Below, piece after piece: positions 5,874 through 59,435 of a stretch of DNA of 64,000 nt. The notes beneath the pieces are model-generated. The model searched no databases. It saw nothing but the letters and a program-made list of their open reading frames with translations, and was not told the DNA's origin. Every line of letters starts with the position of its first letter. Within the stretch, counting starts at the first letter, position 1. This DNA is from Turbatrix aceti (taxonomy: Eukaryota; Nematoda; Chromadorea; Rhabditida; Panagrolaimidae), in contig OZ017766.1 of NCBI GenBank assembly GCA_963969345.1, forward strand, positions 9,734,001 through 9,798,000, in the 5' to 3' direction. The position numbers and the translations under genes were made by a program.

Positions 5874-6500
5874 CGAACTGGCTTTATTTGATTTCTAAAA
5901 AATTCTTTATCGCTGCTATTCGGTTTATTCAGTGATTTAATAGGAGTTTTCATCAAACTTAGGCATCAAAATTGGTTCTAGACTTTTCAAGGGTCTACTC
6001 AACGTACTCAGTTAATTTTCAAAAACTCCTTTTTTGAGCATTTACTGTTACAAAATTGTAAAAAATCTAGAATTCGTTTTTTTCTTCAACTATTTTTTTT
6101 CCTAAGCAAGTATTTAGCAGAATTCAGTTTTTTTCTAAACTCAACCCAAAATGTTTTTTAAAAACGTAAAAGTTGCATTTTTTGTGTATTTGTTGCGGAT
6201 TGAAAACTCCCAAAAAAAATTTTTTCAAATAACAAAACCTTTGACTATTTTAAACAGGATATTTATTTTGTTAACCAGAGCTTACTTTTTTCAGTAATTG
6301 TTTGGCTTGAAACTTTTACGATACGATATTTTGATTCCTAACAACGTTTTAGACAATTACATACTATAATATTTATTTAGTAGATCTCAAATAATCATTG
6401 CTTGAAATGCTTGTTACCTCAAATTGATTGTTACAACAAAAATTCTGAGTTGCTTTATTTTATCGCATTTATATACTGTGCCATGTATAACCTGAGCTTT
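5874..6500. other. Intergenic, no gene seen
   Basis: AT-rich sequence with CAGTT motifs on the + strand and no coding-like frame. The downstream neighbour is a decayed TTC39-like remnant. Confidence 0.4.
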
Positions 6501-6504
6501 AATT

Positions 6505-7078
6505 TTTGCCAATCCACGTGTTTTACCACATTGATGTCAATGCTTTTGAATCTTGCCATTTTTCGATAAACGCTTTTGAAATAAAGAGTATTGTTTACAT
6601 TGTTTATCGGGGACGTCGGATGCATGTTAACTCCAACGTTCTGAACAGTGAGGGATGAACACCAGGATCCAACTTTTAGGTATTTTTCACAATAATTTAT
6701 CGCTTCTGGATATTCAAATCTTTATTGCACTTCTGAAAAATTAGTTTTTTCTTGAAACTATAAATCGCTTATCAGAAGAAAAAATTTTTTTTAGCAGTTT
6801 TTGTACCCAACACAGCCGAATTTATGTATAACCATAAAAAATTTATTTCAATCCCAAACGTTGGCGTAAAGATTGTCAAAAACGACGATCATGTGTCAGT
6901 GTAGCAGCAACTGTAATGAAGTTTTTTTTTATTTAGAATAAAGTTCCGTTCGTACAGTTAAAAAATAAATAAACCAATATAACGTTTTTATTTATGAAAT
7001 TATTGATTCAATGAACAGTTAAAAAAACAATAAATAATAATAGAACGTGCTCGTTGGCATCGGCAAACGCTTTGTTCA
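6505..7078 (-). pseudogene. Remnant of a duplicated TTC39-like gene (first and last exon relics)
   Basis: Two patches match the intact gene at 7334-12757 in the same orientation. Positions about 6520-6660 resemble its last exon (shared stretches GATGTCAATGCTTT, TTGCCATT..TCGATAAA and CGTCGGATGCATG), and about 7041-7078 resemble its first exon (GAACGTG.TCG.TGGCATCGG followed by CAAA.GCTTTGT). The order matches the real gene (first exon at higher coordinates), and the middle exons are absent. Frames are destroyed by substitutions and gaps. Confidence 0.75.
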
Positions 7079-7333
7079 TAAAAATTTTTATACCGGAAAG
7101 TTTCAGTTATTTAAAACAATTTTTTTGTAAAGCCGATCGTTTGAGCCAATTTTAAATATCAAATTTTGGTCTGATATTTACCTGAAATCTAAAAAAAATA
7201 TTTTTTAATTTTGATTTCATCGCGACAATAAATTAATTAACTTATTCTGTTTTTAGTTTTATATTATACATGTACAGTTCTGTCTCCGATTACAGTTTTT
7301 TAAAACTAAAATTTCTGACAACAAAGTGCCTTG

Positions 7334-12757
<5,424 letters not shown>

Positions 12758-13929
12758 GTTAGAACTTGTAAAAAGAAAGCAGTTATTAAATATTTATTTA
12801 TTTAGATCAAAGCTGCGTTGGAAAAAATTACTGTAAAAGTTTTAAAACTACCAGACAGTTATTTCCCTAAAACCAAAAAAATAACCAAACTTTTAAGTAA
12901 GAAAAAAAAAGTTCTTTGTCGGTACCCAAGTAGCAGTCAATGTCGACTAATTGCCTGTGAGCACTCAACTCCGCGTATGTAAGAGTCCCATGCCACAGAT
13001 GAGACGGCAGCATTGGCATGAGTTCTCCTGCTGCCAGCCAGCGTGTTTTACGCTAACGCAATAATTTTACCGCACTCATGCTGACGTTGCTACTAACTGT
13101 CAGGTACGATGAATACCATTATTAGGCTGGTGAATAAAAAAAATAAATAGTGTCGCCGGACGTTACCATGGCAGTAAATGTTTTGAGTACAATTAAATAT
13201 TATGCAGGTGGTTGATAAAATGAATGTGTCAATATTTATTTATTCACGCTACTGTAGGGGGTTGTGATAACGTTTTTAATAGCAAAAAAATTCACAAAGA
13301 AAAAATAATTTTTTTTAAACGCAAAACAATTTTTTTCATTTTTTTGTTTTTTTTAATTTTTGGTAATCCGTTTCATTATCAGTTAAAATAAATAAGGTAA
13401 ACACAAAAGGAGATCAGTAATAATAAATATTTTTTTTAATATTAATTATGTAAACAAAAAATGGGTACGTTTCAGTTACACTTTTGATTTTTTTTTTAGA
13501 AATTAGGTAAAAAGTATTATCACAACAAATGCAGTCAGTTTACAACGTTGTTAAAGATCACAAATGAATAAAAAGTGCACTTGTCACGTACCGTCCACAG
13601 ACGCGTCTGGAAGATTATTTCGATCGTCAATGACAAGCAGTGATCTTTGGGTACTGATTGACTGACATAAGTTGTCGACCTGCTGAACAATTGGATAATA
13701 AATTTATTTCATTTACAGTTTTTGTTATGTTAAATAAAATTGTTATGTTGTGATCATTGATCGAAACTCAGTTATAATATTTTTGCATAGCTGACAAATC
13801 GATGTCTAAAATTAACAGTAATTTTTGTACACATTTTATTAATTTTATTAAATCTTAATAGCAAAAACATTTACCACTGTTTTTACATTGCAAACTTGTT
13901 TTATTTTTTAGAATTATTTTTAGACGCAG
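12758..13929. other. Intergenic, upstream of the TTC39-like gene
   Basis: AT-rich with a modestly GC-richer patch at about 12905-13110. No recognisable gene. CAGTT motifs recur on the + strand. Confidence 0.35.
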
Positions 13930-14073
13930 ATGCCCCCTTTCGAACCCAGCAGGAACGAAGATACTGAAACCATAACCGACATGACGAGAAAAACAAAACC
14001 AAACCGCGGTGTAAAAAAGTACACGTACGTCATCACGCGGCAACAGAATACACTGGATCATGCATTTTTTTGA
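13930..14073 (+). CDS. Possible short exon or micro-ORF, 47 aa
   Basis: An ATG-initiated frame preceded by a good acceptor (ATTTTTAG at about 13916-13923). It reads MPPFEPSRNEDTETITDMTR, is hydrophilic, and ends at TGA 14071. Codon composition looks coding-like against AT-rich flanks, so it could be the last exon of a gene with unseen upstream exons. The antisense frame 13855-14061 is less convincing. No family is recognised. Confidence 0.25.
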   Translation: MPPFEPSRNEDTETITDMTRKTKPNRGVKKYTYVITRQQNTLDHAFF

Positions 14074-14189
14074 TGACTACGCGTTTATATAAAACAAACA
14101 AGTTTTCATAAGACATCGCTATATTTTACTACTTGTGATTAACTAACGAATTGATAATAACATTCATTGCTCGTTTCATCATTATTGCT

Positions 14190-15483: not shown

Positions 15484-16873
15484 ATGACAGATCAAGAAGT
15501 CGTTGTAGTAGATGACCACGACGGGGATACAACATGTGAAACATCCATCAATGGTCTTCCAACGACAAGTTTCGCGACGCGTGTTCCTCGTACAACTCGG
15601 CCAAAACAAGGATTACAGGACATGAATTCTGTCAAAGTAAGCCCCTTTTTAAAAATGCAGTTTTGTAACTTTTTTTTCTGGTTTCTAGGGCGTTCCCTCG
15701 TTTGACAGCGTGTCTGAATTCAACGAGATCACTCTCACTTCTACCGCGGATATCGGCAGCCTCGCAGGTTCGTCTCTATCCACAGAAGGTGAATCCGAGT
15801 TCGGAGTAATTTTTTCTCGGGCTCAGGAAGCCATCGAAGCGGGAATCTACCCACAACTTATCCCATCTGGAAGTTCGGGATCCTATTTTGTCTTTGATCG
15901 AGACCGAAAAATCATTGCTGTCTTCAAACCCTGCGATGAGGAACCCTTCGCTCCGCTCAACCCCAAATGGCCCAAATTTTTCCAAAGAATGCTCTGTTTT
16001 TGTTGTTTTGGAAGAGCTTGTCTGATTCCAAATCACGGATATCTTTCTGAAACCGCGGCGTCTTTGGTCGATGAAAGACTCGGTCTCAAAGTTGTTCCCA
16101 AGACGAGAGTTGTCAGACTCGCATCTCCGACTTTTAATTACGGGCATCGGAGGAAAAACACGTGTCTGACGTCTTCGAGATTCAAGAAAGGAAGTTTTCA
16201 ACTTTTTGTTGAAGGTTACCGAAGCGCAGCTGAGTTACTGGCTGAATGGGAAAATTCGTCTTCGGCGTTGACCCCGGCCGAAGAAAAAAAGTTTACGATA
16301 CTTTTCCAGAAATTGTGTGTTCTGGATTATGTAATTCGAAATACTGACCGACATACTGAGAATTGGCTTATTAGGTTTGTCTTCGGTATCGACTTTGTTG
16401 AGACCAGTTTTTTTTCCAGACACGTCCCCGAAAAGGAACTCGACATTGCAGTCATCGACAACGGCCTCGCCTTCCCCGTCAAACACCCTGAATGCGCATC
16501 CCGATTCCGGCAATTCCCATTCCACTGGGCAGATCTCAAGTATGCGTCGCTACCGCTGGATGAAGACCTTCGGTGTCGGTTACTCAGCTTACTGACTCCG
16601 GCTTTTGTCAGCGTACTCAGCGACGAATTGATGACTCTTTTTCGAAAAGACAAATCCCACAATCGGCTTCTTACCTTCAGTCAAATCCGCGTCTTTCGAG
16701 GTCAGCTTTGGAATCTTCGGGATGCCCTTGCTGCCGGTGAACCACCGGTTGAGTGGGTCAAACGGGATCCAATCTTGGTCAAGCGTCGAAAAAAAAACAT
16801 TCTTCCAGAGTGTTCTTTTGATGAATGCTTTCGGCGTCGTCGAAGTGATTGTGCTAACCGGGTATGTTGTTGA
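15484..16873 (+). CDS. Phosphatidylinositol 4-kinase type II
   Basis: Exons 15484-15636, 15689-16374 and 16420-16873 give 430 aa. The 45-nt second intron (16375-16419) is in frame without stops, so it can be misread as coding. The enzyme makes PI4P on Golgi and endosomal membranes. Visible motifs are the P-loop PSGSSGSYFVF, the ATP-binding lysine in IIAVFKPCDEEPFAPLNPKW, the Cys-rich membrane loop MLCFCCFGRAC (CCPCC-like palmitoylation site), the catalytic VIRNTDRHTENWLI, and the metal-binding AVIDNGLAFPVKHP. The PFHWADL and C-terminal helices follow. The length is near that of metazoan PI4K2 enzymes. The extreme C-terminus (RRRSDCANR) abuts a possible GTATGT donor, so a further small exon cannot be excluded. 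Confidence 0.95.
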
Positions 16874-18155: not shown

Positions 18156-18479
18156 CAAATGTGCAAGCGCCGTTTTTTTCCGAAAAGTTCTCGAAAAAAT
18201 TTCGACGTCGTCAGATCTTCTAAGTTTCAATTTTCAAGTTAGTAGGCACCCCTGAAGTGCATCTCGGTTTCATCAATCTTTTGATGTGAGTAGTTTTGCC
18301 GCGAATTTTCGATGCAGTTACGAGTCTAGTATTGCATTTAAATTTTTTTTATATGTATCTAAAAAAAAAATTCAATACATAAATTTAAAGTTTGAATTTG
18401 AAATTTTTAAATTGAAATTGATTTAAAAATTACGAGTACAGTTTTATAACAACTCTGTTGTTATTCACGCAAAAAAAAA

Positions 18480-18640
18480 TCGTCAAGAAAACTGACGATT
18501 TTTTGTCAGTTTTCTTGATTTCTTCATTAGTTAGAAAATAACTGACGATTGCAAACGTCAGTTTTGCATTCGTTAGAAAAACTGACGATTGCAGACATCG
18601 ACTTTTTAATTGTTAGAAAAACTGACGAATTGAAAAAGTA
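18480..18640. repeat. Short tandem units with TTAGAAAAACTGACGATT
   Basis: Three to four degenerate units of roughly 50 nt, each reading GTTAGAAAAACTGACGATT followed by a GTCAGTTTT complement, so every unit can form a hairpin. The same unit recurs in the TIR element at 20343-20725. Confidence 0.65.
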
Positions 18641-20342: not shown

Positions 20343-20725
20343 CACTGAAAAAAAAACCATTTTTCGTTAGTTTTACTGACGTCCCCATTCGTGAGAAAAA
20401 AACTGACGATTACAAAAGTCAGTTTTGCAATCGTTAGAAAATCTGACGATTAAAGAAATCAGTTTTGCATTTGTTAGAAAAACTGACGATTAAAGAAATT
20501 AGAAAAAAACTGACGTTTTACTTTGCAAAAAAATGAAGTTTTGTGAATGCGTACTCTTGTCTCAAAACGTCAGAAAAAAACTAACGATTTCCCTTTTAAA
20601 AAAATCATCAGTTATTTCCTGACGTCCCTGATCGTCAGTTTTTCTAACGATTTTGTGCAAATCGTCAGTTTTTCTAACATTTTCACTGATTCTGACGTTT
20701 TCATTCGTCAGTTTTTTGTTCAGTG
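20343..20725. mobile_element. CACTGAAAAA-ended TIR element (MITE-like)
   Basis: Starts CACTGAAAAAAAAAC after TTA and ends GTTTTTTGTTCAGTG. Internally it has repeated GTTAGAAAAACTGACGATT / AATCGTCAGTTTTTCTAAC hairpin units. The terminal CACTGAAAAAA resembles the ends of the 3.36 kb element at 36387-39749, suggesting one transposon superfamily (TA target). Confidence 0.7.
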
Positions 20726-40887: not shown

Positions 40888-41894
40888 GGCTGAAAATGTG
40901 ATATATCTATCAAAAGTTTGAGTGCAGTTTATTCATTGCTTTGAACGCGATTTGTTATCTATCAAACTTGATGCTATTCATCAAAATGTACCAGTTTCGC
41001 AATTTTTATCTTCACCTATTTTTTCTAAACACTCCCCGTTGTTTGTGGGCACAAAAAGCTTATGTTAGTATCAATTTTTTTTAGTATTTTTTGTTTGCCA
41101 ATTCATTCTTGTTGCCAGTTTTCCATGACTTTTTGAATTCCAAGACAAAACAAATTATCATGTTTCCAAAAACAAAAATATAATTAAAAATATTGACAAA
41201 ATTATTTACATATTTATTTGCATTTAATAACGTTTCAATTTTTTTCACATTTTGCCGCAGTTTTCATACAAAAATTATTAATTCCTTGAACTGGAAACGA
41301 AACAACAATGGCATTTGAGGAATGACGAAAAACTCGAATAAATTTTTGCAACATAAACAGTTTTACAGTGACCGGGATAATAAATGGATGTCTCTAACAT
41401 TGTCATCTAATTTTGTCGACAGTTATTGTGCACGAGTAAGAGTAATAAAGTAATGTAACGTAAAGTAAAGTTGTAAATACAAAAAAAATGGTAAAAAATG
41501 ATCATGTACCGTTATCTGAAAAAAAACCAGTCACGCAGTTTTAATCCATTCCATATTTTTCTAAACATCTTTGGTTGCTTGCGTGCACAAAAACACAGTA
41601 ATTATTTTCCGAGAATTTTTGTGAGCAGCGAAACTTATCATATTTATTGGACAGTTTTTTCTCAGTTTTATTTAATGAAATAAATGTGCTTGAAAGTGAT
41701 GTTTTTTTAGAACAAAGCCTTGTTTTTCGAAACAAAATGGATGTCCGAAACAAAAATTTAAAAACGTCAATTCGCAGTTTTTTTGTTAAGTTTTTACCCC
41801 CTATATGGGAAACACTACCTTGGCCTTCGGTAATGCTCCCAGTGACCTTGTACCCCGTGAGTCTCCGAGAGATAAGAGAGTGTTTATTCGAAGC
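40888..41894. other. Intergenic upstream of the Sre receptor
   Basis: No gene. Dense + strand CAGTT motifs (about 41116, 41261, 41358, 41420, 41537, 41653, 41665, 41775) with a single AACTG (41289). Confidence 0.45.
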
Positions 41895-41916
41895 CTCAAA
41901 CTTGGGTAATTAAACC
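41895..41916 (-). other. Exact SL1 spliced-leader sequence, no GT donor
   Basis: The minus strand matches all 22 positions of the canonical nematode SL1 leader (begins GGTTTAATTACCC, ends AAGTTTGAG). The next bases are GCTTCG, not the GTAAAC-like donor of SL1 RNA genes, and no Sm site plus 3' hairpin is apparent. Twelve bases further on is AATAAACACTC. It lies just 3' of the BEL element on its coding strand, so it may be part of the element's terminal region or a retrocopied trans-spliced end. Confidence 0.85.
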
Positions 41917-44900
41917 TATTGGTAAACCAATAGCGCGTTACGCGACAAATAAATAATCAACAAATAAATAAAGAATCATGGGAGCAAAATGGGAGACAAA
42001 TATGAGGACACAACCAAAAAGTAGGACGACCAAGAGGCAAGCAGCGAAGTTTCCTAGACTTTCGCTCCGAGAGTCGAAAGCGTGCGCACAGCCGTAACCG
42101 ATCTTTCGCGGCTGGAGAAACAGAACGCGCGCGTTCTCGCAACTTTTGCGACACTCGGCGCCGCGGCCACCGAGCGCCCGAGGGAAACCAAAAAGACGAA
42201 TGTTGGCCCGAAGGCCCAAAAATCCCCAAATTCGCAAATAAAAACCGAAAGAAGCGCGGACCGGGTGAGTGAGGGACTTGGGTCTGGTACGGGTTTTGCC
42301 AGTTGAGACTTACCGTGCAAGCCAGGCGGGAACATTGGACCTAGGTGGGGCCTCAACCTTCAAGCCCTGATTCGACCTTCGTCCGGCCTCGCCGTGAAAC
42401 ACAAACCAAAAAAACCAAAGGGGAGGAGATTTTGAATAAACCCGATATCCCAAATCCAAAAAAAACGCGTGCCTACTCGCCGTACTTGGTCTGAAGGGGA
42501 AGGGAAGGGGGGACAAAAGGGGAAGAATCATAGACCCACTTACACCTGCTGCCTGCTCTCAAGGGCATAGAGGTGGTTGAGTGGTCGCGTAAGCTGTCCC
42601 GTCGACGTCTTGACAACTGCAGCTCGGTTGACGCCGTCCTGGGATGCGATCAGCTGCTGGATGAGGCCGAGCCTCCAGAGGTGACGAGGACCGTCGTCGC
42701 GGATGACTACCGTCTCGCCGACAAGTGGTTCGTACTTATTGCGGATTCGGCCGGAGCGGTGGATCCACTGGGTGCGTTCCCGGAGATGATTCAGGTATGC
42801 CGTCATGAAGAGCTCGGCTGCCTGCGAGGAGTCTTCCTGCTGCTTTCTCCACAGCTGGGACAGCACTTCGGGGCCCGGCGCCGCGACGGGAGGTTGAGAG
42901 GCCTGCATGCCCGGCAGAATGCGGTCCGTCGCAGGAAAGAAATCACAAGGTCTCAGCGTGACCGTTGTGTCGTCGTCGAGAGGTACGAGTGGTCGGCAAT
43001 TGACAGCTGCTTCGATCGTGCCCAGATGATGGTCGATCTCACTCAGATATGGGAGCTTTCTGCCAAAAGTCCGATGCATGCAATTCTTGACGATTCCGAT
43101 GAGCCGTTCGTAGACTGCGCCTTGCCACGGAGCTCGCTCAATGGTGTGGCTCCACCTGACGCCGTGGAAGGCCGGATCCTGGGTGACGAATTTGGCGACC
43201 TTGCGGAAAGACAGTGCGTTGTCGCTGAGGACCGTCGATGGGAATCCGAATCTGGTTGAGTGACGGTAGAGAGTCTCGAGTACGTCGGGAGCACTCATCG
43301 TCGGCGTTCTCTGCAGTTGGATCGCCCGGGTGGTCAAACAGGTGATGATGAGAACAACCGTCGACGTCTTGAGGCCGTCCTTGTCAATGACGCGAAGTGG
43401 ACCGAAGAAGTCGACGCCGATGTGCGCGTACGGCCTGGTCAGTTCGGTGCGCTTGGACGGTAGTGGCGGAAACAGCGGCATCTCGTACGGCCCGGCATGC
43501 TGCTGGCGGCACCTGGTGCAGGTTTTCAAGATGCTGCGTACCGTGGCCCTGCCTCGTAGAATCCAGAAGTGCTCTCGGATGGCTGTGAGCGTCGTAGCCG
43601 TTCCGCAGTGGGCTAGCTGCTCGTGCACTTGACGTACGTAGAGGGTCGTCAGATGCGAGTGACGCGGGAGAACAGGGAGTCTTGGACCGTGCCGGATGCG
43701 GTCGTTGAAGTGGACGACACCGTCTGGTCCTTTGATGAGGGCATTGTCGCTGGTCGGGATGACGTCGTAGCGCTGTTGCTCCTGCCGAATGAGGAAGCGC
43801 TCTGCCTCGTGCCAAGCCTCGCCGTCCCCCAACACTGGGAATTTTAATTGGATTGTCCCCATTCTCGTGACCCATCGGCGACTGTTTTGGATTACCATTC
43901 TTGTAACCCGAATCAGCCGGCGATAATTACTAAAATTTTCGACCGAAATAAAGGGCTGCGCCTGATTTTGCTGCTGCGCGATTGTACAAGCCAGCGTCAT
44001 TGCGTGCACGATTTTGGGCGGCGCGACGTTGGAAAAAATTTTGGGACACTCGCCCGAACGCAACCATGGGGGTCCGTGCCACCACAGTTCGAGCTTACCC
44101 AAACTACGCATGCTGGTACCACGTGTCGGAAGATCCGCCGGATTGTCTTCCGAAGCAACGTGACCGAACGAAAACGCGATCGGCATCGCCAGCAACTTTT
44201 TGACACGGTTTAGAACAAAAAGATCGTGCGATGGTTTCTTAACCCAATCCAGTGCGATGGTGCTATCAGACCACAGACAGATTTCGCGAAATTTGGGCCC
44301 AGTTTGCTCAATCTCAAGAGCCAACTCCGCCGCCATAACAAGCGCCTGCAGCTCCGCTTTTGGAATGGTCGTAGACCGCGCTTTGAATACGCTTTTGGAC
44401 ATGATAAGAGCCGGCGGCTCACCGGTGTCAGGTTTGAAGTACGCGGCCGCGGCAACAAATTCACCAGACGCGTCCGCAAAAACGTGTAACTCGCCGCCCC
44501 CCTTAGAAATAGCGTAACGTGGAACCGTGACTTCGCCATTGACCAGTTGCACGACGTCTTCCCACGCCTTTGCCAACTCACTACCGAGCGGCACGCTACG
44601 CTCGTGACTGAAGATGCCATGCTGGCGCGCAAAACTTTTGAGCAACGCCGTGACTGGAGTAACGAAACCGATAGGATCAAAAACCGATAAAATTGCGCTG
44701 TGCACCTCCTTGGTGTTTTTGCACCGCTTAGCGTCGATAGCGATGTTTGTGCGAAAAACATCCGTCTTCGCGTCGTAACCTATGCCGAGAATCTTCAAAC
44801 GCGCTTCGTCAGCCGTTTCCTTGATTCCTTCGAGCAAACTACCTTTGTTGCTAAAGAATTCACGAAGATGGAACTTGCCGTCCTCGAAATGCAATTGCAC

Positions 44901-45286
44901 TCTACGCCGCCTTTGGTCGAGTAACTCAGGGTCATCGTCCAGAATGAACACGTTGTCTACGTACGTGGTGACCATGACGATCTCGTCCGGATGGCCTCTC
45001 ATATGGACGTGCAGCGTGATTCCTAGGAGCGCCGGACTACAATTCATGCCAAAAATGAGTTGTTTGAAACGATAAGCCTGAATATTCCGCCGGGTTGGTG
45101 GAAGATTTGGATCGCGCACCCACAAAAACCGTAAAGCGTCCCTGTCTTTTGGACTCACCGAGATCTGGTGAAACGCTTTTTCAATATCGCATGCCACGAA
45201 AAATTTGGCTCCCCGAATTTTGAGCAAAATACTGCGCAGCTTTGGCAATAAGTCCGGCCCTTGGTGAATCATGTCGTTGAGACAGT
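41917..45286 (-). mobile_element. 5'-truncated BEL/Pao LTR retrotransposon
   Basis: The open pol frame runs 45286-42540 on the minus strand (910 aa from the first Met). Domains in order: the C-terminal part of reverse transcriptase (YVDN in place of the usual YVDD), RNase H (HVFADASGEF, AELQALVMAAELALE), an integrase zinc finger (H..H..CTRCRQQ), an integrase core with D, D and E (GVDFFGPL, VLSDNALSF, GAVYERLIGIVK), and a C-terminal DUF5641-like segment (GETVVIRDDGPRHLW). Gag, protease and the first RT motifs are missing. 42539-41917 is the GC-richer 3' non-coding part. No stop codons break the remaining frame, so truncation may be recent. Confidence 0.9.
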
Positions 45287-46202: not shown

Positions 46203-46220
46203 TTCCCGGCCGATGCACCA
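46203..46220 (-). promoter_or_regulatory. Primer-binding site complementary to tRNA-Gly 3' end
   Basis: On the minus strand, TGGTGCATCGGCCGGGAA directly follows the CCGATACA end of LTR copy B. It is the 18-nt complement of the 3' end of a nematode-type tRNA-Gly(GCC), including CCA. This marks copy B as a 5' LTR in the minus orientation. Confidence 0.85.
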
Positions 46221-46467: not shown

Positions 46468-48400
46468 CGAAAAAAACAGTATTCAGTTATAAAAAATTGT
46501 TCGATTGATTTTTGGACTTGCGACAAAAAACGATGTCAATGAGGCGCTATTTTTTAGATAAATAACTCGAAAAAATGTAACAAACTAAAGCATAAAAAAA
46601 TTGTTTTCCCCCGATGTTCAGAATAACATTGCATCCCTGTGTAGTACACGGCATACGCATTACTATGAACATACAACATGTAGTATACAATTTGTCCCGG
46701 GGGATCAATTAACCGAATGCTAGAAAAGGCAACAACATGGTTAAAATTTTATGTTTCTGTTTACAATTTACGATTTAATTTTATAAATTTACGGAACTTT
46801 TTCGACAAAAACGAGCTGTCAGTGATAAATAATTTTTACATGACTAAATCAAAGTTAGGATTGGCATTATTTGTTTTTAAAGAACTGAATTCAAACAAGT
46901 GGACAAATTCAATTTTGTAAAAAGATGAAGAAATATAAAATTCAGTTTTTTAGGTTATTTGTTACAAACAATGCGTATATGCTAAAACAGTGTCACAATC
47001 CTCGAGAATCTGACTACTTCTTACATTTTTGTTGAAAACGCAAAATTGTTTATTTCAAACATAAAAATAGTTTTTTTTGGTAACCGAGCGATATCAGTGA
47101 TGCAAAATATTTTTAAAATTGAAAACCAAAAAAGGAACGAAAATTGTTCAGAAGTTCATGTTAGCATTTCTGTGTGTACAAAATTAAAAAAATAATTACA
47201 TAATTATTTAAATATTTACTAGTCATTATAATAATGTTTAACCAGTCTAATGATAACTAACCACTGAGTAATGGTGAAATAAAATAAATAAAATAATCAT
47301 AAATAAGACAACTTTATTAAAGAAGTATACAATGTAATGATAACATTTGTCCAGTTACATAAAGTAAAAAATAAAAAATATAATAGAATATTTTTTTATT
47401 TTTTCTGCAAACTTTTGAAAAAAATCTAACAAAAGCTCAGTTCAATATTTTTTAATGACCTAGTTCAAATTTTGTTTTGAAAATTCCAAAAAATAATATC
47501 AAGAAATTGTGGTTGGCATTTAATTTCGTTTTATTTAGTTTTTTTTCTAGTTTTGAAATTTTATAAAACAAAGGGTAGGTCAAAATTTTTGTTTTATAAA
47601 ATTCCAAAAAACCTGAAAAACAGTATAAAAAGGCTGAAGCACAGCAGCGCCGAGCGCCATTTTAATATCAAAAAAATAGAATACTCAAAACCTTTTGTGG
47701 TTTGCATTCTAAATAGATATACGTTTAAGAGCGGTAGTCGAACAAAAAGATGCCACAACTATATATTTGTATATGTCAAAAACGTATAAATATTATATTT
47801 TGTGAAGGTCACACAGGACACCATCACGAGGCTAATAATTCATGAGCTTTAGCTTCTGCCCCAGTGGACGTGAACTTTAGATTGTATTGGTATACACATT
47901 TTGTAAAATGTCAAAGAACTCGTTTTTGAAGCGCTTTTTTTGACGACATCAGTGTAGTGTGTATGGTGATAACGATTGTTTTTACAAAAAAAAATTTGAA
48001 AACTATGTAAACGATGTCAAATTAATGATACACAGTTTTTCGTGTTGAGACCGGCAATACAAGTATTTATGCTGCGTGTATAAACAAAATACCAGTTAAA
48101 AAATCCCCTTGCAAAAGGTTACTTTAAACCGGTCAACGCAGGTTAATCCTCGTATAAACACTCTTCCGGTTACGAAATCAGGACACCTCAGTTTTGACGT
48201 AGTGCAAAACACTGCGTAACCAGAATCCCGTGTGTTGCAGCGTAAAAATTATCCATCGCACAAACATTTGAGGGTTCACGCAGAAAGAAGGGTCGGGGGG
48301 TTATAAAAGAGTGAAGATGCTCCAAAGAATTCCCGTAGTATCAGTGTTTTTTTCTTCTTTCCCGCGTTGTTAGACAAACAAGACTCCTCCACGCAACAAC
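46468..48400. other. Intergenic, no confident gene
   Basis: AT-rich. A TAACCACTGAGTAATGGTG block (about 47259-47277) is the inverse of a segment unique to the first unit of the 51-58 kb tandem repeat (about 51685-51704). A TATA-like GGTTATAAAAGAG (48299) lies about 100 bp before the secreted peptide. Confidence 0.4.
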
Positions 48401-48568
48401 ATGACCACACAAGTCATAGCCCACTGCGTCCTCCTCGCAGCCCTACTTTTCGCTTATTTTGTGGCTACGACAACTGCGTGCAACAGAGATGGTTGGTACG
48501 ATGATTATGGCTACTACCGTAACCGAAATTGGTACAAGCGTGAAGGCATGGATGCTCCAGAGTCGTAG
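48401..48568 (+). CDS. 55-aa secreted peptide, unknown
   Basis: ATG at 48401, stop at 48566-48568, single exon. The N-terminal half is a strong signal peptide (CVLLAALLFAYFVATTTA). The mature part is Tyr/Asn/Asp-rich: CNRDGWYDDYGYYRNRNW then YKREGMDAPES, with one Cys and a KR dibasic site. Upstream has a TATA-like box and downstream an AATAAA at about 48625. It resembles small secreted, aromatic-rich peptide precursors of nematodes, but no family can be assigned. The GC-richer ORF against AT-rich flanks supports coding. Confidence 0.65.
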   Translation: MTTQVIAHCVLLAALLFAYFVATTTACNRDGWYDDYGYYRNRNWYKREGMDAPES

Positions 48569-50096
48569 ATAACGACGATCATTCGATTTGATGAAATATT
48601 TGTTCCCAGTTTTTTTTGGAATTTTGAATAAAGTAAATAAAATAAGGCATAAATATGTCACTTAAATCAGTTTCTCTAATACATACAATATATCTAAATG
48701 ATTATTTTAATGTTATGAAGTCATGCGTACTTTGCCAGTTACCAAATTTTTACTTATATACGTGGTCGATGTCAGTTATAATAGATTTACAGTAACATCT
48801 CGCTTTATAATGAAGTTTCTATGAATCCAAAAAAGTGAATCAAAAAATGTTTTTCACTCAAAAAATGTTTTCACTCTTCCTTAAACAACCAAAATTCTAT
48901 GTTTATAACTCAGTTTATAATGAAGTTTCTATGAATCCAAAAAAGGTGATGAATCAAAAAATGTTTTTCACTCTTCCTTAAACAACCAAAATTCTAATGG
49001 TAGATTTTTCTGATTCTAATGTGAGCAGATGTTAAAAAAAAGACACAGTTTAAATTAAAATCAAAATCATTTTCGAGTCATTTAAATCAAAAGTGTGTCA
49101 CACTGCAATAAAAATGAAAAAACAAACAAACAGACTCCAAACATTTTTCAAAAACGGCACAAATTGTACAGTTTTTTTAGTTTTTGTTGGCAACAAAACA
49201 AAATTAAATTGTTTTTAAAATGACAAAGCGATATTACTGGCACAGTTTGTTTATTTCTTAACGACGCAAAAAACGTATGTAAATGAGGAAAAACACAGTT
49301 TTGTTTTTAGCACGCCGATTGTAAACATAAATCAGTCGAGCATGACATTTTAGAAATTTAAGGGTATTATTTTTGTTAATCAATGATTAAGCGACAGTTT
49401 TTTAGGCACATTCATACTACAGATGCGCAAAAGCAAAGTTTTTACGGTCATTTTATGGTTCTCAACAAATGAGGTATACTGTAACCAAAAAAAATTGTAT
49501 TTGTTTTGATTGAGATAATTAACTTTTTATAAAAGTCGTTCAAGTATATTAAAAAATTTCTTCCGCAGAACAGTTTTAATTAGGTGACAAAAAAAACTAC
49601 ATTCATGTCAAAGCCGGAACCAGAAAACTCGTTATTATTAACATTAAAAAAAATTCTATAATGCATTTTTTGCAATGTCAGTTATAAAAATAATACTTAC
49701 CAGGTTTGTTTTTAAATATCCCTAATTCATAATTAAAAACAAATGATGGCGTCAAATGGAGAAAAACAACCTACAAAATGGCTACAAATAATTTCATGGG
49801 TTGGTAAAGTGCGTGATATGGCACACGCGTGATGGGTGGGGAGACAAAAAAGTGCATTGTACAGTCGAGTGTTAAAATATAAGGACGCTTTTCTGCAAGT
49901 TACAAAAAATGCTTAAAATAATTAATACGGCCAAAAAAAGAGTTTTATAAAGGCAGTTTTAATTTTAAAAAATACATACATAATAACACGTATTTTTCAA
50001 ATGCAAATTTTTTGCATACAGGAAAAAAATTTACATACATACATCAAGCCTTTACATACATTCAGTGTAAAATTCCATGTGTCTACAACGCAAAAC
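48569..50096. other. Intergenic with a two-copy tandem repeat
   Basis: 48810-48905 and 48913-48995 are diverged copies of a unit with ATGAAGTTTCTATGAATCCA and CTTCCTTAAACAACCAAAAT. The remainder is AT-rich with frequent + strand CAGTT motifs (about 49047, 49167, 49241, 49294, 49394, 49569, 49677). Confidence 0.5.
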
Positions 50097-53000
50097 ATGT
50101 CTAGCGAAACGCACTCTCTCGCATCTCTGATACCCCTTTCCCCCGTCGTACAGGGTAATCGGCAACAAGGACGCCGCATTTACCTTGTCCGAAACGGTGA
50201 ATCATGTGATCGTATATCGGCAACGTGGCGTATAAGATCTTTTCACGATCACGGGGTTTACCGGATCGTGGATCTCAACCAGCCAACCAAAATCATTCCT
50301 CGACAACCGGATCACTTCGCCAGTGATCCACCGCTGACGCAGATTGGAGGATTTGCAGCCCAGCTCATCGGACGTGGAATGAGCTTTCGCAGATGCAATA
50401 TCCAGACCGTCATTTCTTGTACTACGCTCAGGTGCCTTCAGACGGCGAGGTACATTACACAAACGCTCACCGATGAAAAAATGGATATCAGCGTTGAGCC
50501 GGGGCTTTTTGATCCGCTTCTTTTTTATTGGAAGGTAGGAAAATTATTTTTTAGTTTTTATTAACATTGTGTACAAATATGTACAGTTTTTTTTAATCTA
50601 CAAAATTAGAAAAAAAATTAAAAACATGAAATGTTTGAAATTTCAGTTTTGCATCGAATAAATTGTTTTACTTATTTTTTCTCTGAAATCTGAGGAAGAC
50701 TAGTACTACAAAGTACAAAAAAACGACTTCCAGGAAATTTTACAAATTATTATCCGTTTCAAAAAGCGTCTAACGAACTGTCGTCGATAACACTATCTGT
50801 CAGTTAATTAGTAGTACACACATTTTTATTAATTGCACGTAAAATTTACACCCTACATATCAGTTAAAAAAATAATACGTACTACATAAAAGTTTTCAAA
50901 GCCCGAGTCCTTAAAATTCTTTGTATGTCAAAACAACACAATTTTTTTTTAAATCCTATCAAACTTTTCAGTTTTTGTAAAAAATCCATTCCAGGAGCAC
51001 TTTCCCACCTTTGCAACCCCAGAAGAACTCGAAAAAGCCAAAATTTATTTGTCCAAGTCCTACAAGCCAGCCATGTCTCTACCGGAACTGAGCGAAACTC
51101 TGTCAAAAGAGAAAACAGTCTACGACTTTTACTCTCGTCTCGGCAAAGTGGCCACCGCCCTCCAGGCAGCGCCCGGACTATCTTCCGGAGACTTGCTCAT
51201 CGTTACGCACGCTCCCGTCATCGACGGACTTTTACGGATACTCACAAGTTTGTTCATTGCTCATTTAAAAATAGAACAAGGCTAAAGGGGGGGCCCCCTA
51301 CGGGGGCCCCAGGAAGGGAAAAGGAAGGAAGGGGAAGGCAAGGCAAGGCAAGGTAAAGGCATCAAGGAAGGATCAGAAGGATCGTAAAATCGAAAAGGAT
51401 CGTCTATCGTTTTGTTGTTTATTTTCTTTTTGCCCGTTTTACGTTTATCTTTTGCCGATAATAATTTTACCGATAGAAAATAATTATTTTTTGTTATTAT
51501 CTTTTAGAATAACCGATAATTTGCATATTATCAAAATCAAATCAAATACATATAATCGTTTTTTGACCCGCTTTCAAATTTAAAAATATTGGAATACATA
51601 AATATAATGGGGGCCCCTACGGGGCCCCATGTAATTTGTTTACCGCTTTTATAAAATATAAGTAATAATTTATTTATTTATTTATTTCACCATTACTCAG
51701 TGGTTATGGTGCTTTTCAATATCGCGCATCTTTCGTCACCGCCTAATAAATCCTCGCCCGCTGCAATCGCTTATTGACCCGTTTCAATGCATAAAACTAA
51801 ACACAAAAAAATATTCAAAGAATAGGTACAAACACTAATACTGGGGCCCAGGAAAAATAGCAATTTAACAAAAATCATAAAATTATGATACATGAATCAA
51901 AATTAATAACAACAATCACTTGTTTTGCCATCTTTCGCCATCACCCAATCGCCCACTGTCACCGCCGTTGCGGTTCTCTCGACTGATGGCATGTGCGCCG
52001 TCCGCCTCTGCACCCGCTGTCTGGTCCGCCCACTCACCATGGATTTCATTTTCTGAGAGATCAAAAAATTGAATTGTTCAAATTAATTTTTAAAATGTTG
52101 AAAAAATGTTTTTCATACTCAGCAAAAAATGGCAATGCTATTGATATCACATTTGCCCCTACCCCAGTTACTGGCACAAATTATTTTTTTGTAAACCAAA
52201 AATTCAAATTTGTTCATTTTTGATTTTTGACCGTCAAATGACCCATCATTATGATTGCCTATTTCCGAGGAATTGAAAAATATTTTTTTCAACATTTTTA
52301 AAATTAATTTAACAGAATCATTTTTTTGTCTTACGCAATCGTCCTTGCGCTATCGCTCGCTCGCTCACACTCACCCACTTGACCTTGCGCGCCGCCTCCT
52401 CCCTCTATCGCGCTTTCGCCATTGACAATTTTGACAATTATGATAAAGCGTGCATTATCTTTTTCAAATCAATGGCTCCGGACCTAATGGCCCGCCAAAC
52501 CGTTATCAGCGTAAAATTTGGATTTTATCGAATATACATACCGTAAAATTAAAATTGTGTCTTTGCACAAACATCCTACTATAAGAAAGAAGACAAGGCT
52601 AAAGGGGGGGCCCCCTACGGGGGCCCCAGGAAGGAAAAGGGAAGGAAGGGGAAGGCAAGGCAAGGCAAGGTAAAGGCATCAAGGAAGGATCAGAAGGATC
52701 GTAAAATCGAAAAGGATCGTCTATCGTTTTGTTGTTTATTTTCTTTTTGCCCGTTTTACGTTTATCTTTTGCCGATCATAACTTTACCGATAAGAATTAT
52801 TTTTTGTTATTATCTTTTAGAATAACCGACGATTTGCATATTATCGAAATCAAATCAAATACATATAATCGTTTTTTGACCCGCTTTCAAATATCGAATA
52901 CATAAATATAATGGGGGCCCCTTTGGGGCCCCATGTAATTTGTTTTACGCTTTTGTAAAATATAAGTAATAATGTTGCTTTTCAATATCGCGCATCTTTC

Positions 53001-56000
53001 GTCACCGCCTAATAAATCCTCGCCCGCTGCAATCGCTTATTGACCCGTTTCAATGCATAAAACCAAACACAAAAAAATATTCAAAGAATATGTACTAACA
53101 CTAACACTGGGGGCCAGGAAAAATAGCAATTTAACAAAAATCATAAAATTATGATTACATGAATCAAAATTAATAACAACAATCACTTGTTTTGCCATCT
53201 TTCGCCATCACCCAATCGCCCACTGTCACCGCCGTTGCGGTTCTCTCGACTGATGGCATGTGCGGCGCCGTCCGTCTCTGCACCCGCTGTCTGGTCCGCC
53301 CCCACACCATGGATTTCATTTTCTGAGAGATCAAAAAATTGAATTATTCAAATTAATTTTTAAAATGTTGAAAAAATGTTTTTCATACTTCAGCAAAAAA
53401 TGGCAATGCTATTGATATCACATTTGCCCCTACCCCAGTTACTGGCACAAATTATTTTTTTGTAAACCAAAAATTCAAATTTGTTCATTTTTGATTTTTG
53501 ATCGTCAAATGACCCATCATTATGATTGCCTATTTCCGAGGAATTCAAAAATATTTTTTTCAACATTTTTAAAATTAATTTAACAGAATCATTTTTTTGT
53601 CTTACGCAATCGTCCGCGCGCTATCGCTCGCTCGCTCACACTCACCCACTTGACCCTGCGCGCCGCCTCCTCCCTCTATCGCGCTTTCGCCATTGACAAT
53701 TTTGACAATTATGATAAAGCGTGCATTATCTTTTTCAAATCAATGGCTCCGGACCTAATGGCCCGCCAAACCGTTATCAGCGTAAAATTTGGATTTTATC
53801 GAATATACATACCGTAAAATTAAAATTGTGTCTTTGTAAAAACATCCTTACTATTATAGAGAGGTAACAAGGCTAAAGGGGGGGCCCCCTACGGGGGCCC
53901 CAGGAAGGGAAAAGGAAGGAAGGGGAAGGCAAGGCAAGGCAAGGTAAAGGCATCAAGGAAGGATCAGAAGGATCGTAAAATCGAAAAGGATCGTCTATCG
54001 TTTTGTTGTTTATTTTCTTTTTGCCCGTTTTACGTTTATCTTTTGCCGATCATAATTTTACCGATAGAAAATAATTATTTTTTGTTATTATCTTTTAGAA
54101 TAACCGACGATTTGCATATTATCGAAATCAAATCAAATACATATAATCGTTTTTTGACCCGCTTTAAAAATATTGGAATACATAAATATAATGGGGGCCC
54201 CTTTGGGGCCCCATGTAATTTGTTTTACGCTTTTGTAAAACATAAGTAATAATGTTGCTTTTCAATATCGCGCATCTTTCGCCATCGCCTAATAAATCCT
54301 CGCCCGCTGCAATCGCTTATTGACCCGTTTCAATGCATAAAACCAAACACAAAAAAATATTCAAAGAATATGTACTAACACTAACACTGGGGGCCAGGAA
54401 AAATAGCAATTTAACAAAAATCATAAAATTATGATACATGAATCAAAATTAATAACAACAATCACTTGTTTTGCCATCTTTCGCCATCACCCAATCGCCC
54501 ACTGTCACCGCCGTTGCGGTTCTCTCGACTGATGGCATGTGCGGCGCCGTCCGTCTCTGCACCCGCTGTCTGGTCCGCCCACTCACCATGGATTTCATTT
54601 TCTGAGAGATCAAAAAATTGAATTATTCAAATTAATTTTTAAAATGTTGAAAAAATGTTTTTCATACTCAGCAAAAAATGGCAATGCTATTGATATCACA
54701 TTTGCCCCTACCCCAGTATCTAGCACAAATTATTTTTTTTAAAACCAAAAATTCAAATTTGTTCATTTTTGATTTTTGATCGTCAAATGACCCATCATTA
54801 TGATTGCCTATTTCCGAGGAATTCAAAAATATTTTTTTCAACATTTTTAAAATTAATTTAACAGAATCATTTTTTTGTCTTACGCAATCGTCCTTGCGCT
54901 ATCGCTCGCTCGCTCACACTCACCCACTTGACCCTGCGCGCCGCCTCCTCCCTCTATCGCGCTTTCGCCATTGACTATTTTGACAATTATGATAAAGCGT
55001 GCATTATCTTTTTCAAATCAATGGCTCCGGACCTAATGGCCCGCCAAACCGTTATCAGCGTAAAATTTGGATTTTATCGAATATACATACCGTAAAATTA
55101 AAATTGTGTCTTTGTAAAAACACCTTACTATATAGAGAGGTAACAAGGCTAAAGGGGGGGCCCCCTACGGGGGCCCCAGGAAGGGAAAAGGAAGGAAGGG
55201 GAAGGCAAGGCAAGGCAAGGTAAAGGCATCAAGGAAGGATCAGAAGGATCGTAAAATCGAAAAGGATCGTCTATCGTTTTGTTGTTTATTTTCTTTTTGC
55301 CCGTTTTACGTTTATCTTTTGCCGATCATAATTTTACCGATAGAAAATAATTATTTTTTGTTATTATCTTTTAGAATAACCGACGATTTGCATATTATCG
55401 AAATCAAATCAAATACATATAATCGTTTTTTGACCCGCTTTAAAAATATTGGAATACATAAATATAATGGGGGCCCCTTCGGGGCCCCATGTAATTTGTT
55501 TTACGCTTTTGTAAAATATAAGTAATAATGTTGCTTTTCAATATCGCGCATCTTTCGTCACCGCCTAATAAATCCTCGCCCGCTGCAATCGCTTATTGAC
55601 CCGTTTCAATGCATAAAACCAAACACAAAAAAATATTCAAAGAATAGGTACAAACACTAATACTGGGGCCCAGGAAAAATAGCAATTTAACAAAAATCAT
55701 AAAATTATGATACATGAATCAAAATTAATAACAACAATCACTTGTTTTGCCATCTTTCGCCATCACCCAATCGCCCACTGTCACCGCCGTTGCGGTTCTC
55801 TCGACTGATGGCATGTGCGCCGTCCGTCTCTGCACCCGCTGTCTGGTCCGCCCACTCACCATGGATTTCATTTTCTGAGAGATCAAAAAATTGAATTATT
55901 CAAATTAATTTTTAAAATGTTGAAAAAATGTTTTTCATACTCAGCAAAAAATGGCAATGCTATTGATATCACATTTGCCCCTACCCCAGTTACTGGCACA

Positions 56001-57973
56001 AATTATTTTTTTGTAAACCAAAAATTCAAATTTGTTCATTTTTGATTTTTGATCGTCAAATGACCCATCATTATGATTGCCTATTTCCGAGGAATTCAAA
56101 AATATTTTTTTCAACATTTTTAAAATTAATTTAACAGAATCATTTTTTTGTCTTACGCAATCGTCCTTGCGCTATCGCTCGCTCGCTCACACTCACCCAC
56201 TTGACCCTGCGCGCCGCCTCCTCCCTCTATCGCGCTTTCGCCATTGACAATTTTGACAATTATGATAAAGCGTGCATTATCTTTTTCAAATCAATGGCTC
56301 CGGACCTAATGGCCCGCCAAACCGTTATCAGCGTAAAATTTGGATTTTATCGAATATACATACCGTAAAATTAAAATTGTGTCTTTGCACAAACATCCTA
56401 CTATATAGAGAGATAGACAAGGCTAAAGGGGGGGCCCCCTACGGGGGCCCCAGGAAGGAAAAGGGAAGGAAGGGGAAGGCAAGGCAAGGCAAGGTAAAGG
56501 CATCAAGGAAGGATCAGAAGGATCGTAAAATCGAAAAGGATCGTCTATCGTTTTGTTGTTTATTTTCTTTTTGCCCGTTTTTCGTTTATCTTTTGCCGAT
56601 CATAACTTTACCGATAAGAATTATTTTTTGTTATTATCTTTTAGAATAACCGACGATTTGCATATTATCGAAATCAAATCAAATACATATAATCGTTTTT
56701 TGACCCGCTTTCAAATATCGAATACATAAATATAATGGGGGCCCCTTTGGGGCCCCATGTAATTTGTTTTACGCTTTTGTAAAATATAAGTAATAATGTT
56801 GCTTTTCAATATCGCGCATCTTTCGCCATCGCCTAATAAATCCTCGCCCGCTGCAATCGCTTATTGACCCGTTTCAATGCATAAAACCAAACACAAAAAA
56901 ATATTCAAAGAATATGTACTAACACTAACACTGGGGCCCAGGAAAAATAGCAATTTAACAAAAATCATAAAATTATGATTACATGAATCAAAATTAATAA
57001 CAACAATCACTTGTTTTGCCATCTTTCGCCATCACCCAATCGCCCACTGTCACCGCCGTTGCGGTTCTCTCGACTGATGGCATGTGCGGCGCCGTCCGTC
57101 TCTGCACCCGCTGTCTGGTCCGCCCCCACACCATGGATTTCATTTTCTGAGAGATCAAAAAATTGAATTATTCAAATTAATTTTTAAAATGTTGAAAAAA
57201 TGTTTTTCATACTTCAGCAAAAAATGGCAATGCTATTGATATCACATTTGCCCCTACCCCAGTTACTGGCACAAATTATTTTTTTGTAAACCAAAAATTC
57301 AAATTTGTTCATTTTTGATTTTTGATCGTCAAATGACCCATCATTATGATTGCCTATTTCCGAGGAATTCAAAAATATTTTTTTCAACATTTTTAAAATT
57401 AATTTAACAGAATCATTTTTTTGTCTTACGCAATCGTCCGCGCGCTATCGCTCGCTCGCTCACACTCACCCACTTGACCCTGCGCGCCGCCTCCTCCCTC
57501 TATCGCGCTTTCGCCATTGACAATTTTGACAATTATGATAAAGCGTGCATTATCTTTTTCAAATCAATGGCTCCGGACCTAATGGCCCGCCAAACCGTTA
57601 TCAGCGTAAAATTTGGATTTTATCGAATATACATAACGTAAAATTAAAATTGTGTCCTTGCAGAAACACCTTACTATATAAAGAGGTAATCCTACTATTA
57701 TAAGAGTTAAAAAAGGGGGAGGGGACTGGAAAAAGGCAACAAAAACAAGTTTAATTGGATGTAAATAATTTGTAGTTTGTTGCAGAGAGAGCGGACTTTC
57801 CAAACTCCGTGGAAGACTTGCACCGACTCGGCCTGGACTATCCTTTTGCAAGCGTGGTTGTACTCGAGCGTTGCAATGAAACTGGGACGTGGTCTTTGCT
57901 TCCGGATGTTTTTCCGCCGCTCAGTCTCTGTCACATGTCGACCCGAGTGCAGGTACCTGATTTTGAAGAGTGA
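50097..57973 (+). CDS. Histidine-phosphatase superfamily protein (TULA-like), catalytic His missing
   Basis: Exons 50097-50534, 50995-51247 and 57786-57973 join in phase: 292 aa. The layout follows the PGAM domain of UBASH3/TULA proteins: RRIYLVRNGES (expected RHGE), DPPLTQIGGFAAQLIGRG, a CTTLRCLQTARYI segment, PTFATPEELEKAK, then DLLIVTHAPVIDGL with the second catalytic His retained. The RHG motif is RNG, so the residue that forms the phospho-histidine intermediate is Asn and a non-catalytic protein is predicted. No UBA or SH3 domain. Exon 3 (DFPNSVEDLHRLGLDYPFAS) lies beyond a 6.5 kb intron filled with tandem repeats. An alternative is that exon 2 reads on to a stop at 51283 in the intron. 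Confidence 0.83.
51277..57690. repeat. Five tandem copies of a ~1.28 kb repeat inside an intron
   Basis: Units start at ACAAGGCTAAAGGGGGGGCC near 51277, 52592, 53868, 55142 and 56417; spacing is about 1315, 1276, 1274 and 1275. The first unit is longer because it has an extra TTTATTTATTTATTTC segment around 51670-51705. Each unit holds two GC hairpins (GGGGGCCCC-CTAC-GGGGGCCCC type and GGGGCCCC-TTTG-GGGGCCCC type), a purine-rich GGAAGG/GGCAAGGCAA block, and a pyrimidine-rich CGCTCGCTCGCTCACACTCA block. Short conserved ORFs exist only because the DNA is repeated. The repeat lies in intron 2 of the phosphatase-like gene. Confidence 0.95.
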
Positions 57974-59435
57974 AGTTGAAAGGATTTTGACTTCGTTGGA
58001 TAGTATGTAGTATATGTAAACGATGGATGGATTTCTTTTTTTTCTGGAAAAACAAATAATAAATGCAGTCGTTGGAACGTAAAACTTAAAGAAATAAAAA
58101 AATCTGTTGCGCGACAGTTTCTATGATAAATAACAAAAAAATTTTTAGAAAATTTTTGTATCGATTGCCCCAAATCTCAAACGTAACCTTTTGAACAGTT
58201 TTTACTAAAAAAAATTGTTTTTGGAAAAATAATTTTATGTAAGTTCAAGATTAGAGGTAATACAGTTTTTCAAAAAACAAAGCCAATTTATCATGGAATT
58301 TTCAAAAAATCAATTTTATCATGCAAGAAGCAGATTGTTACCAAAATTTTTGAAAACATTTCTGTTACAGTTTTTATATTAGCATCCGCGCAAAAACTGC
58401 AAAACACGTTGAATTGTCTAATTATTGTTACTATAAATCAAGAATTCCCAAAATCTTGACAGTAATTGAATTTCGGACAATGTTCATAAAAATGAGTTTG
58501 TTAGGTCAGTGCATTACTATCACGAAATTTGAAGCCGCCAAGGGTGTCGGCAGGCCGAGTTTTTGTTGGCGCGACCGGCCCTACTCGACTGACACTGTTG
58601 AAACACAGTTAATAAACGATTTGCTTGAAAAGTAAGTAAGGTACAGTGAGAAAAAATAAATTTACCAGAAAAGTTCCATTAAAAACTTCGAAGCAAGTAT
58701 ATATTTTGCATAAATACCATTGCGCAGTTATACATAAATAAATACATATTACGACAAAACAAAACCAAAAATGAAATTTTGTATGTTAACCAATGCTTGC
58801 ATGCACCGAGTATATGCAACAGTGATTGCCAAACATTTATATTTTTAAACAATGTCCGCTTTTTTTAAAGACAATAGTAGCTGTTCGACGTGCAGTTTAG
58901 TTTTTTATAATTTCAGCCACATGCCGAAAGTTGAAGTCTTTGGCCAAGTTTCAAACCGGATAAATATCAAAAAACCCGGCACTGCTTGATAGGAATATTA
59001 TTTTCTTCATAATAAGTTAGCTAATCTTCACATGCTTCCCAGTTTATTTTGTTATCCCAAATGTCATAAACGTATACTTTTTAACCGTTACAAGACAATG
59101 CATGATGTGCTTGAAGGCAGTTAATAAAATATATACAGGTATACTACATAGTAAACGCAGTGCACAACATTTTTTTCACGCATAAATAAAAACTAAAATT
59201 CACCTGCCAAGGCTAAATTTAAACACAACACCGATATAGACAGTCAAAAAGCTTATATTGCTTGTACACAACCGTCGATAACCTTTTTAGGAAAAGCCGT
59301 CTCTAATATGTAGGTAAAACACGTCACAGTTGTTATCATTCTAATCATTGTTAAAACTTTTGTAATTTTGTGTTAGTTATTTCATTTTATTTATTCGACG
59401 TATCCGACGTTGTATGTTAGTTATTGATAAACATA
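57974..59435. other. Intergenic, no gene seen
   Basis: AT-rich, with ten or so + strand CAGTT motifs. It holds a long CAGTT-family motif at 59095-59120 and a small GC-richer patch (58530-58580) of unknown nature. Confidence 0.4.
59095..59120 (+). repeat. Long CAGTT-family motif, copy 2
   Basis: ACAATGCATGATGTGC followed by TTGAAGGCAGTTAAT. Confidence 0.6.

Follow-up and report, generated by a model that had tools for sequence, protein, structure and literature searches.

CAGTTW followed by A/T, the probable core of a short directional cis-element, forms dense, one-sided arrays in the introns and intergenic DNA of a 64-kb window (the whole stretch of DNA analyzed here) located at 9.734–9.798 Mb of contig C1. 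The polarity of such arrays alternates in blocks whose lengths range from several kb to several hundred kb, and co-oriented blocks are present on at least four chromosomes of the assembly (59.9 Mb in 28 contigs, five of which are ~11–13 Mb long). Judging by sequence features, we favor the reading that the arrays may be tiny directional non-coding transcription units, resembling the 21U-RNA clusters of Caenorhabditis elegans yet lying outside the PIWI/Ruby system; we regard this as quite possible, though short of probable. Of the assembly, 263 kb were read by place or as window flanks.

A strand-biased motif with a defined core

Exact counts over the whole window gave 231 CAGTT vs. 65 AACTG, and when k-mers were compared with their reverse complements, CAGTT was the most strand-asymmetric 5-mer (z 9.6). 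Thus, the strand bias of CAGTT claimed in a preliminary description of this DNA is borne out and is stronger than noted there. Its hand counts were reproduced for positions 57974–59435 (10 vs. 1) and 41100–41800 (8 vs. 1), while positions 5874–7330 hold 8 vs. 2 copies and not 8 vs. 1; the balance described inside the transposon at 36387–39749, as about 7 vs. 7, was found again (CAGTT 7 vs. 8). The top asymmetric 6-mers of the window were CAGTTA (80 vs. 3) and CAGTTT (132 vs. 28), and CAGTTW as a whole was counted 212 times on the forward and 31 times on the reverse strand. Dinucleotide shuffles predict 83.8 ± 9.7 copies for the two strands together, and the observed 243 was reached in none of 100 shuffles. 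On the basis of the shuffles, the k-mer asymmetry, and the masked skews given below, we rejected chance or base composition as the source of the CAGTTW excess. Pooled counts from 20 sampled 10-kb stretches, all taken from C1 and C2 only, were 112 vs. 120.

The limits of the motif were read in 80.8 kb of resident cluster DNA, comprising four pieces of the window and five stretches from other places, all inside polarity blocks. Here CAGTTW occurred 342 vs. 40 times, i.e., 4.23 vs. 0.50 per kb, a ratio that is not an unbiased estimate since this DNA was picked partly after looking. As the background in 19 of the sampled stretches was 0.54 per kb per strand, the reverse-strand copies of the cluster DNA are at background level. 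Neither CAGTTG (16 vs. 16) nor CAGTTC (16 vs. 22) was enriched, and CAGTGW was weakly oriented (76 vs. 35; 77 vs. 30 with inserts masked). A/T was found at all of positions +5 to +8 in 54% of the 342 forward sites; the reverse sites (n = 40) reached 23% and the control words (n = 7327) 37%. The motif initially given as CAGTT is therefore refined to CAGTTW followed by A/T, with CAGTGW as a weaker form, whereas CAGTTG and CAGTTC do not belong to it. An apparent depletion of the one-mismatch neighbors of CAGTTW in unmasked DNA was gone once inserts were masked (790 vs. 808) and was dropped.

Polarity blocks on at least four chromosomes

The preliminary description had the bias keeping one polarity over the whole window; this is correct, but the rest of the chromosome does not follow it. 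To the left of the window, at C1:9.658–9.668 Mb, CAGTTW was counted 3 vs. 55; the flip near C1:9.675 Mb is sharp, with a mixed zone of only ~0.5 kb (9.67488–9.67536 Mb), and to the right, at C1:9.806–9.816 Mb, the polarity flips again (9 vs. 22). Boundaries at which the polarity changes, which it had been proposed to look for, thus exist. Equal strand frequencies genome-wide within single contigs had been named as an argument against the bias, and totals are indeed near-equal (GCAGTTAAAA 152 vs. 141); nevertheless, polarity blocks do exist locally. A chromosome-wide polarity is rejected by the balanced totals and by the flips on both sides of the window, and the idea of a single chromosome-orientation signal gives way to alternating blocks with a flip within ~0.5 kb.

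Among the 20 sampled stretches, one had a strong CAGTTW skew (C2:8.000–8.010 Mb, 6 vs. 21) and a sharp onset of a minus block: five plus and no minus copies stand before position 5478, followed by 21 minus and one plus. Skews were milder at C1:12.00 Mb (14 vs. 6) and C2:2.00 Mb (7 vs. 3; CAGTT 14 vs. 4), and the remaining sampled stretches were chance-like. The stretch C2:7.412–7.4135 Mb carried 12 vs. 0 copies.

A block map was drawn from pattern matches to one 10-mer (GCAGTTAAAA, first 100 of 293 matches used) and to three patterns of paired CAGTTA with fixed spacing (complete, with 73, 85, and 74 matches). Run counts were made by eye from the collapsed match list, and the match set containing repeat families was excluded from the neighbor tests. 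Among the matches listed, runs of one polarity were found on C1 (9.603–9.671 Mb minus, 11/12, then 9.685–9.798 Mb plus, 16/16), on C2 (2.265–2.370 Mb minus, 9/9; 2.397–2.548 Mb plus, 16/17; 2.577–2.579 Mb minus, 3; 2.594–2.609 Mb plus, 3; 7.398–7.434 Mb plus, 10/10), on C4 (10.826–10.866 Mb minus, 4), and on C5 (9.473–9.869 Mb minus, 10/10, then 9.961–9.966 Mb plus, 3). Neighbors no more than 30 kb apart lay on the same strand in 116 of 143 cases among these matches, the window's own cluster included, and the maximum in 2000 shuffles was 99. When the test was repeated without C1 and C6, with positions rounded to 1 kb, the remaining C2, C4, and C5 matches listed gave 78 of 97, a value reached in 0 of 5000 shuffles; for C4 and C5 alone it was 17 of 17. 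On the large contig C6, 7 of 9 neighbors among the matches listed shared a strand, which is not significant. A control pair of CTGTTA had 40 scattered matches, with one neighbor pair within 30 kb. Extrapolated from how dense the sites are in the sampled blocks and how far the runs extend, the system would comprise some thousands of sites in roughly 1–2 Mb.

Treating C3 as a motif-free chromosome proved wrong, as this contig has 17,293 bases. It is perhaps the mitochondrial genome.

Spacing and surroundings of the sites

Same-strand CAGTTW pairs were scarce at 6–29 nt (11 vs. ~35 expected from jittered positions) and in excess at 60–74 nt (40 vs. 22, z +4.0) and at 120–149 nt (64 vs. 44, z +3.0). 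None of eight control words had a depletion below 30 nt or a 60–74 peak above z 1.9; single other bins reached up to z 3.7. Both a very small transcription unit and an extended protein footprint would be compatible with a unit of ~60–75 bp. Helical phasing of the sites was not seen at 10–11 bp, and site periods of 9.5 and 30 were above expectation (0.090 vs. 0.042). The flanks of CAGTTW are AT-rich within ~30 bp and contain no second strong element; the weak preferences are for G at −2 (z 4.8) and, further downstream, for C at +40 (z 3.9).

With CAGTKW masked, GC skew was −0.005 and −0.014 and AT skew +0.034 and −0.021 in two data sets, and no other k-mer was strongly oriented in both. The best masked 6-mer, GTATCC, stood at 27 vs. 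3 in the window set and 5 vs. 3 in the other set. Strand skew of the replication or transcription type, and with it the replication feature proposed earlier, is not supported by these values.

As a separate observation, autocorrelation of AAAA at distances of ~10–11 and 20 bp was strong at C1:9000001–9010000 (0.113 at 11, 0.127 at 20), compared with ~0.04 in the window. We take this periodicity to resemble that of the periodic A/T clusters of C. elegans.

Features of the window

The coordinates of the arrays, inserts, and genes are collected in Table 1. Boundaries of the insert and repeat stretches are those of the preliminary description, widened by eye, and gene names are Pfam matches to single open reading frames (ORFs), for which 30 of the 140 ORFs of at least 85 amino acids were scanned. 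Other genes matched in this way were a dual-specificity phosphatase (plus strand), a BTB/BACK protein, a serine carboxypeptidase, and an Sre-type receptor (all minus). The 910-amino-acid ORF presumably resembles a retroelement polyprotein. No known RNA families or tRNAs were found in the window.

Table 1. Arrays and other features of the 64-kb window; counts are CAGTTW, forward vs. reverse.
Feature	Position	Strand	Counts and remarks
CAGTTW array, resident DNA	1–36386	+	143 vs. 19 (3.93 vs. 0.52 per kb)
Two ORFs matching Iml2/TTC39	7998–11623	−	plus-strand motif runs through, 14 vs. 1
PI4-kinase type 2 ORF	15689–16870	+	1 vs. 0
40-bp tandem repeat	18525–18636	−	reverse-strand motif matches
40-bp tandem repeat	20398–20499		motif matches on both strands
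Insert, called a transposon in the preliminary description	36387–39749		7 vs. 6, no bias
CAGTTW array, resident DNA	39750–42000	+	14 vs. 0 (6.22 per kb)
910-amino-acid ORF	42540–45272	−	motif-poor, 1 vs. 0
CAGTTW array, resident DNA	46501–51500	+	23 vs. 0 (4.60 per kb)
Repeat-unit stretch of the preliminary description	51500–57900		motif-poor, 4 vs. 1
CAGTTW array, resident DNA, thinning rightwards	57901–64000	+	18 vs. 5 (2.95 vs. 0.82 per kb)

Motif polarity is independent of gene strand, as had been claimed: the plus-strand motif keeps its excess across the minus-strand TTC39-like span. The Pfam-matched coding stretches (2,765 bp) hold 5 vs. 0 copies of CAGTTW and the rest of the resident DNA (47 kb) 193 vs. 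24, i.e., the motif is about half as dense in coding DNA, though present there. The two tandem repeats share AAAAACTGACGATT and hold several of the window's reverse-strand matches. At least three sites (20609, 20636, and 20666) lie within a dispersed repeat (~20609–20671) that is related to the tandem repeats and also has copies of either orientation at other places on C1 and C2.

Host lineage and Piwi-domain proteins

The PI4-kinase ORF of the window shared 60% identity with each of its closest matches, from Panagrolaimus sp. JU765 and from Panagrellus redivivus, and by this comparison the host looks panagrolaimid-like, i.e., a member of Clade IV; an affinity to Oscheius or Caenorhabditis, considered at first, was given up on this result. 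The genome gave 39 Piwi-domain matches, two of which were typed against solved structures. The best match to both of our PIWI queries, at C5:6.171 Mb (54.8 and 70.2 bits), is an AGO2-like locus, scoring 198 bits to AGO2-like vs. 78 to Piwi-like protein 1. Several similar Piwi-domain matches within ~36 kb at C1:6734291–6770580 represent a local expansion of the Argonaute family. To our knowledge, piRNAs are reportedly missing from nematodes other than those of Clade V and Plectus. Here and below, statements on published systems refer to the consulted parts of the sources cited; in that of PMC4323106, PRG-1/PIWI is given as absent from Clade IV, and piRNAs as absent from Panagrellus.

The arrays as candidate small transcription units

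The suggestion that the motif marks many small non-coding units remains the best-fitting reading. The sites are clustered, lie in introns and spacers within AT-rich flanks, are indifferent to gene direction, and exclude one another below 30 bp, and it is on these features that the reading is based; inserts free of bias and the lack of an accompanying skew support it as well. Each copy would be the promoter core or the initiator of a tiny non-coding unit of at most ~60–75 bp. Units of this size would never place neighbors within 30 bp and would often set them one or two units apart, and a strand shared among neighbors would avoid transcription of one unit into the next. The motif may be the start site itself and not an upstream element, as CAGT (C-A-G-T) has the YRNT shape; this could be why no second element is prominent. 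Transcription, an RNA product, and a role as a non-PIWI counterpart of the 21U-RNA clusters would be expected under such a scheme.

In C. elegans, the 21U-RNA unit is autonomous and consists of an 8-nt core, a ~40-nt spacer, and a 21-nt RNA (PMC3597512), with a YRNT start 42 nt from the motif (PMC6436959). Like the type I 21U-RNA clusters with their Ruby motif CTGTTTCA, the CAGTTW arrays consist of a short motif clustered in introns and intergenic DNA regardless of gene strand, with AT-rich surroundings and a small unit of ~70 bp (PMC3597512, PMC6436959). Unlike those clusters, they have another motif, run in long co-oriented blocks, lack an initiator peak at 42 nt, and lie in a host in which no PIWI-clade protein was found. 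The nearest PIWI-less case is that of the 21–22U RNAs of Strongyloides ratti, also of Clade IV, which are 21–22-nt RNAs with a 5′-U monophosphate, with AT-rich upstream DNA and loci clustered and overlapping on one strand; as described in PMC9203780, these loci are without an upstream motif, X-centered, and partly transposon-derived, in contrast to the motif-bearing arrays reported here.

Two known elements were also compared with the motif. The metazoan (arthropod) initiator is TCAKTY, with transcription starting at A. CAGTT fits its center and would place the start site at that A, but T precedes CAGTTW at a frequency of only 0.33, CATTTW is unoriented (145 vs. 164), and A/T is needed after CAGTT. 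The SNAPc site, i.e., the proximal element of small nuclear RNA (snRNA) genes, is a short directional Pol II element and the presumed origin of the Ruby motif (PMC6436959). The genome has 13 U2 snRNA matches, 12 of them above the family cut-off, and in the eight of the 13 that were read the U2 proximal element is near TTTCTCTGGTTTCTCTGC. Identity of the motif with the snRNA proximal element was rejected, as 0 of these 8 U2 genes has CAGTT within 100 bp upstream.

Several results weigh against small transcription units. YRNT showed no peak at any fixed distance from CAGTTW (319 sites), the sole hints being an excess of C at +40 (24%; z 3.9, with several hundred tests made) and of CA at +40 (z 2.6) and +42 (z 2.4). 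Downstream hairpins were not found, the mean energy being −7.45 downstream vs. −7.77 upstream. An exon-by-exon search with two PIWI queries did not find a PIWI-clade protein, in agreement with the listing of Clade IV in PMC4323106, and small RNAs with a 5′ U bias are described there as not found outside Clade V. The co-oriented blocks depart from the C. elegans model because the consulted part of PMC3597512 denies a prominent strand bias of its loci; members of a C. elegans cluster appear on one strand according to PMC2718520 (data not shown there), and clusters of Caenorhabditis briggsae occupy both strands (PMC9683057). Moreover, the totals of our patterns were mostly no higher than those of their backwards-read versions (293 vs. 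528, 73 vs. 98, and 85 vs. 117; higher only for 74 vs. 64). The evidence is carried by clustering and polarity, not by genome totals.

Alternative explanations

The arrays might instead be oriented sites at which a DNA-binding protein performs a polarity-dependent chromosome or chromatin task, such as pairing, the setting of loop barriers, heterochromatin formation, or germline licensing, with no transcript made from the single sites. We consider this rather unlikely but a serious contender: it accounts for the motif, the polarity blocks, and the short-range exclusion without RNA, and the missing fixed-distance initiator and hairpins are consistent with it. Yet the 60–74 bp preference is long for a single footprint, the sites lack helical phasing, and the candidate that we tried, a Myb-type site, did not agree with the counts. 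The Myb-type recognition consensus is C[AC]GTTR, and its variants were not oriented as CAGTTW is: CAGTTG was balanced, as given above, and CCGTTW stood at 27 vs. 25 with inserts masked (44 vs. 28 unmasked). We know of no protein for an oriented CAGTTW binding array. Two factors of piRNA transcription in C. elegans carry Myb-like SANT domains (PMC6317315).

Less probable still is that CAGTTW serves as a processing, export, or cleavage signal in long nuclear transcripts that span whole blocks from one strand, the divergent flips being two-way promoters. Single polarity across a long block is a property shared with the one-strand piRNA clusters of fly and mouse, and the sharp flips speak for this reading; AATAAA also has a slight deficit on the motif strand (173 copies vs. 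213, z −2.0). This last effect is too weak to use, however, and ATTAAA, splice-like words, and T-runs are balanced between the strands, while protein-coding genes of both strands lie inside the block. The fly and mouse clusters also differ in that they lack a repeated motif and arise by processing of long transcripts (PMC3597512), and no PIWI-clade protein was found here.

An origin of the arrays as a functionless by-product is very unlikely, be it through remains of dispersed repeats, mutational bias, or the footprint of insertions; the flips would then be due to inversions. Some sites do fall within dispersed or tandem repeats, and the flip is as sharp as the end of an inversion would be. 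Against this, the flanks of the sites share AT-richness and weak single-letter preferences only, no further word has a strong orientation in both data sets, the spacing rule is missing from the eight control words, and the inserts that were counted carry no bias. Conventional PIWI/21U-RNA clusters whose Ruby motif has diverged would match the clustering, the position in introns and spacers, and the AT-rich flanks, but they are highly improbable in a Clade IV genome of this kind (PMC4323106), given the failure to find a PIWI-clade protein, the lack of a YRNT peak near +42, and a Ruby core that is not enriched in the window (CTGTTTC 2 vs. 3, GTTTC 79 vs. 89).

Significance

The titles and abstract beginnings obtained in literature searches of open-licence PMC papers contained no report of such arrays, which is not proof of their absence in print. 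If the array only binds a protein, it would constitute a genome-scale polarity code in an animal, and no such code was found reported in the same titles and abstract beginnings. The directional motif and its block structure provide a list of candidate loci in a lineage reported to lack piRNAs. It is conceivable, if somewhat doubtful, that a lineage without PIWI evolved thousands of motif-coded autonomous small-RNA genes in co-directional blocks on at least four chromosomes, which would amount to a second, independent invention, or a replacement, of the 21U-RNA cluster.

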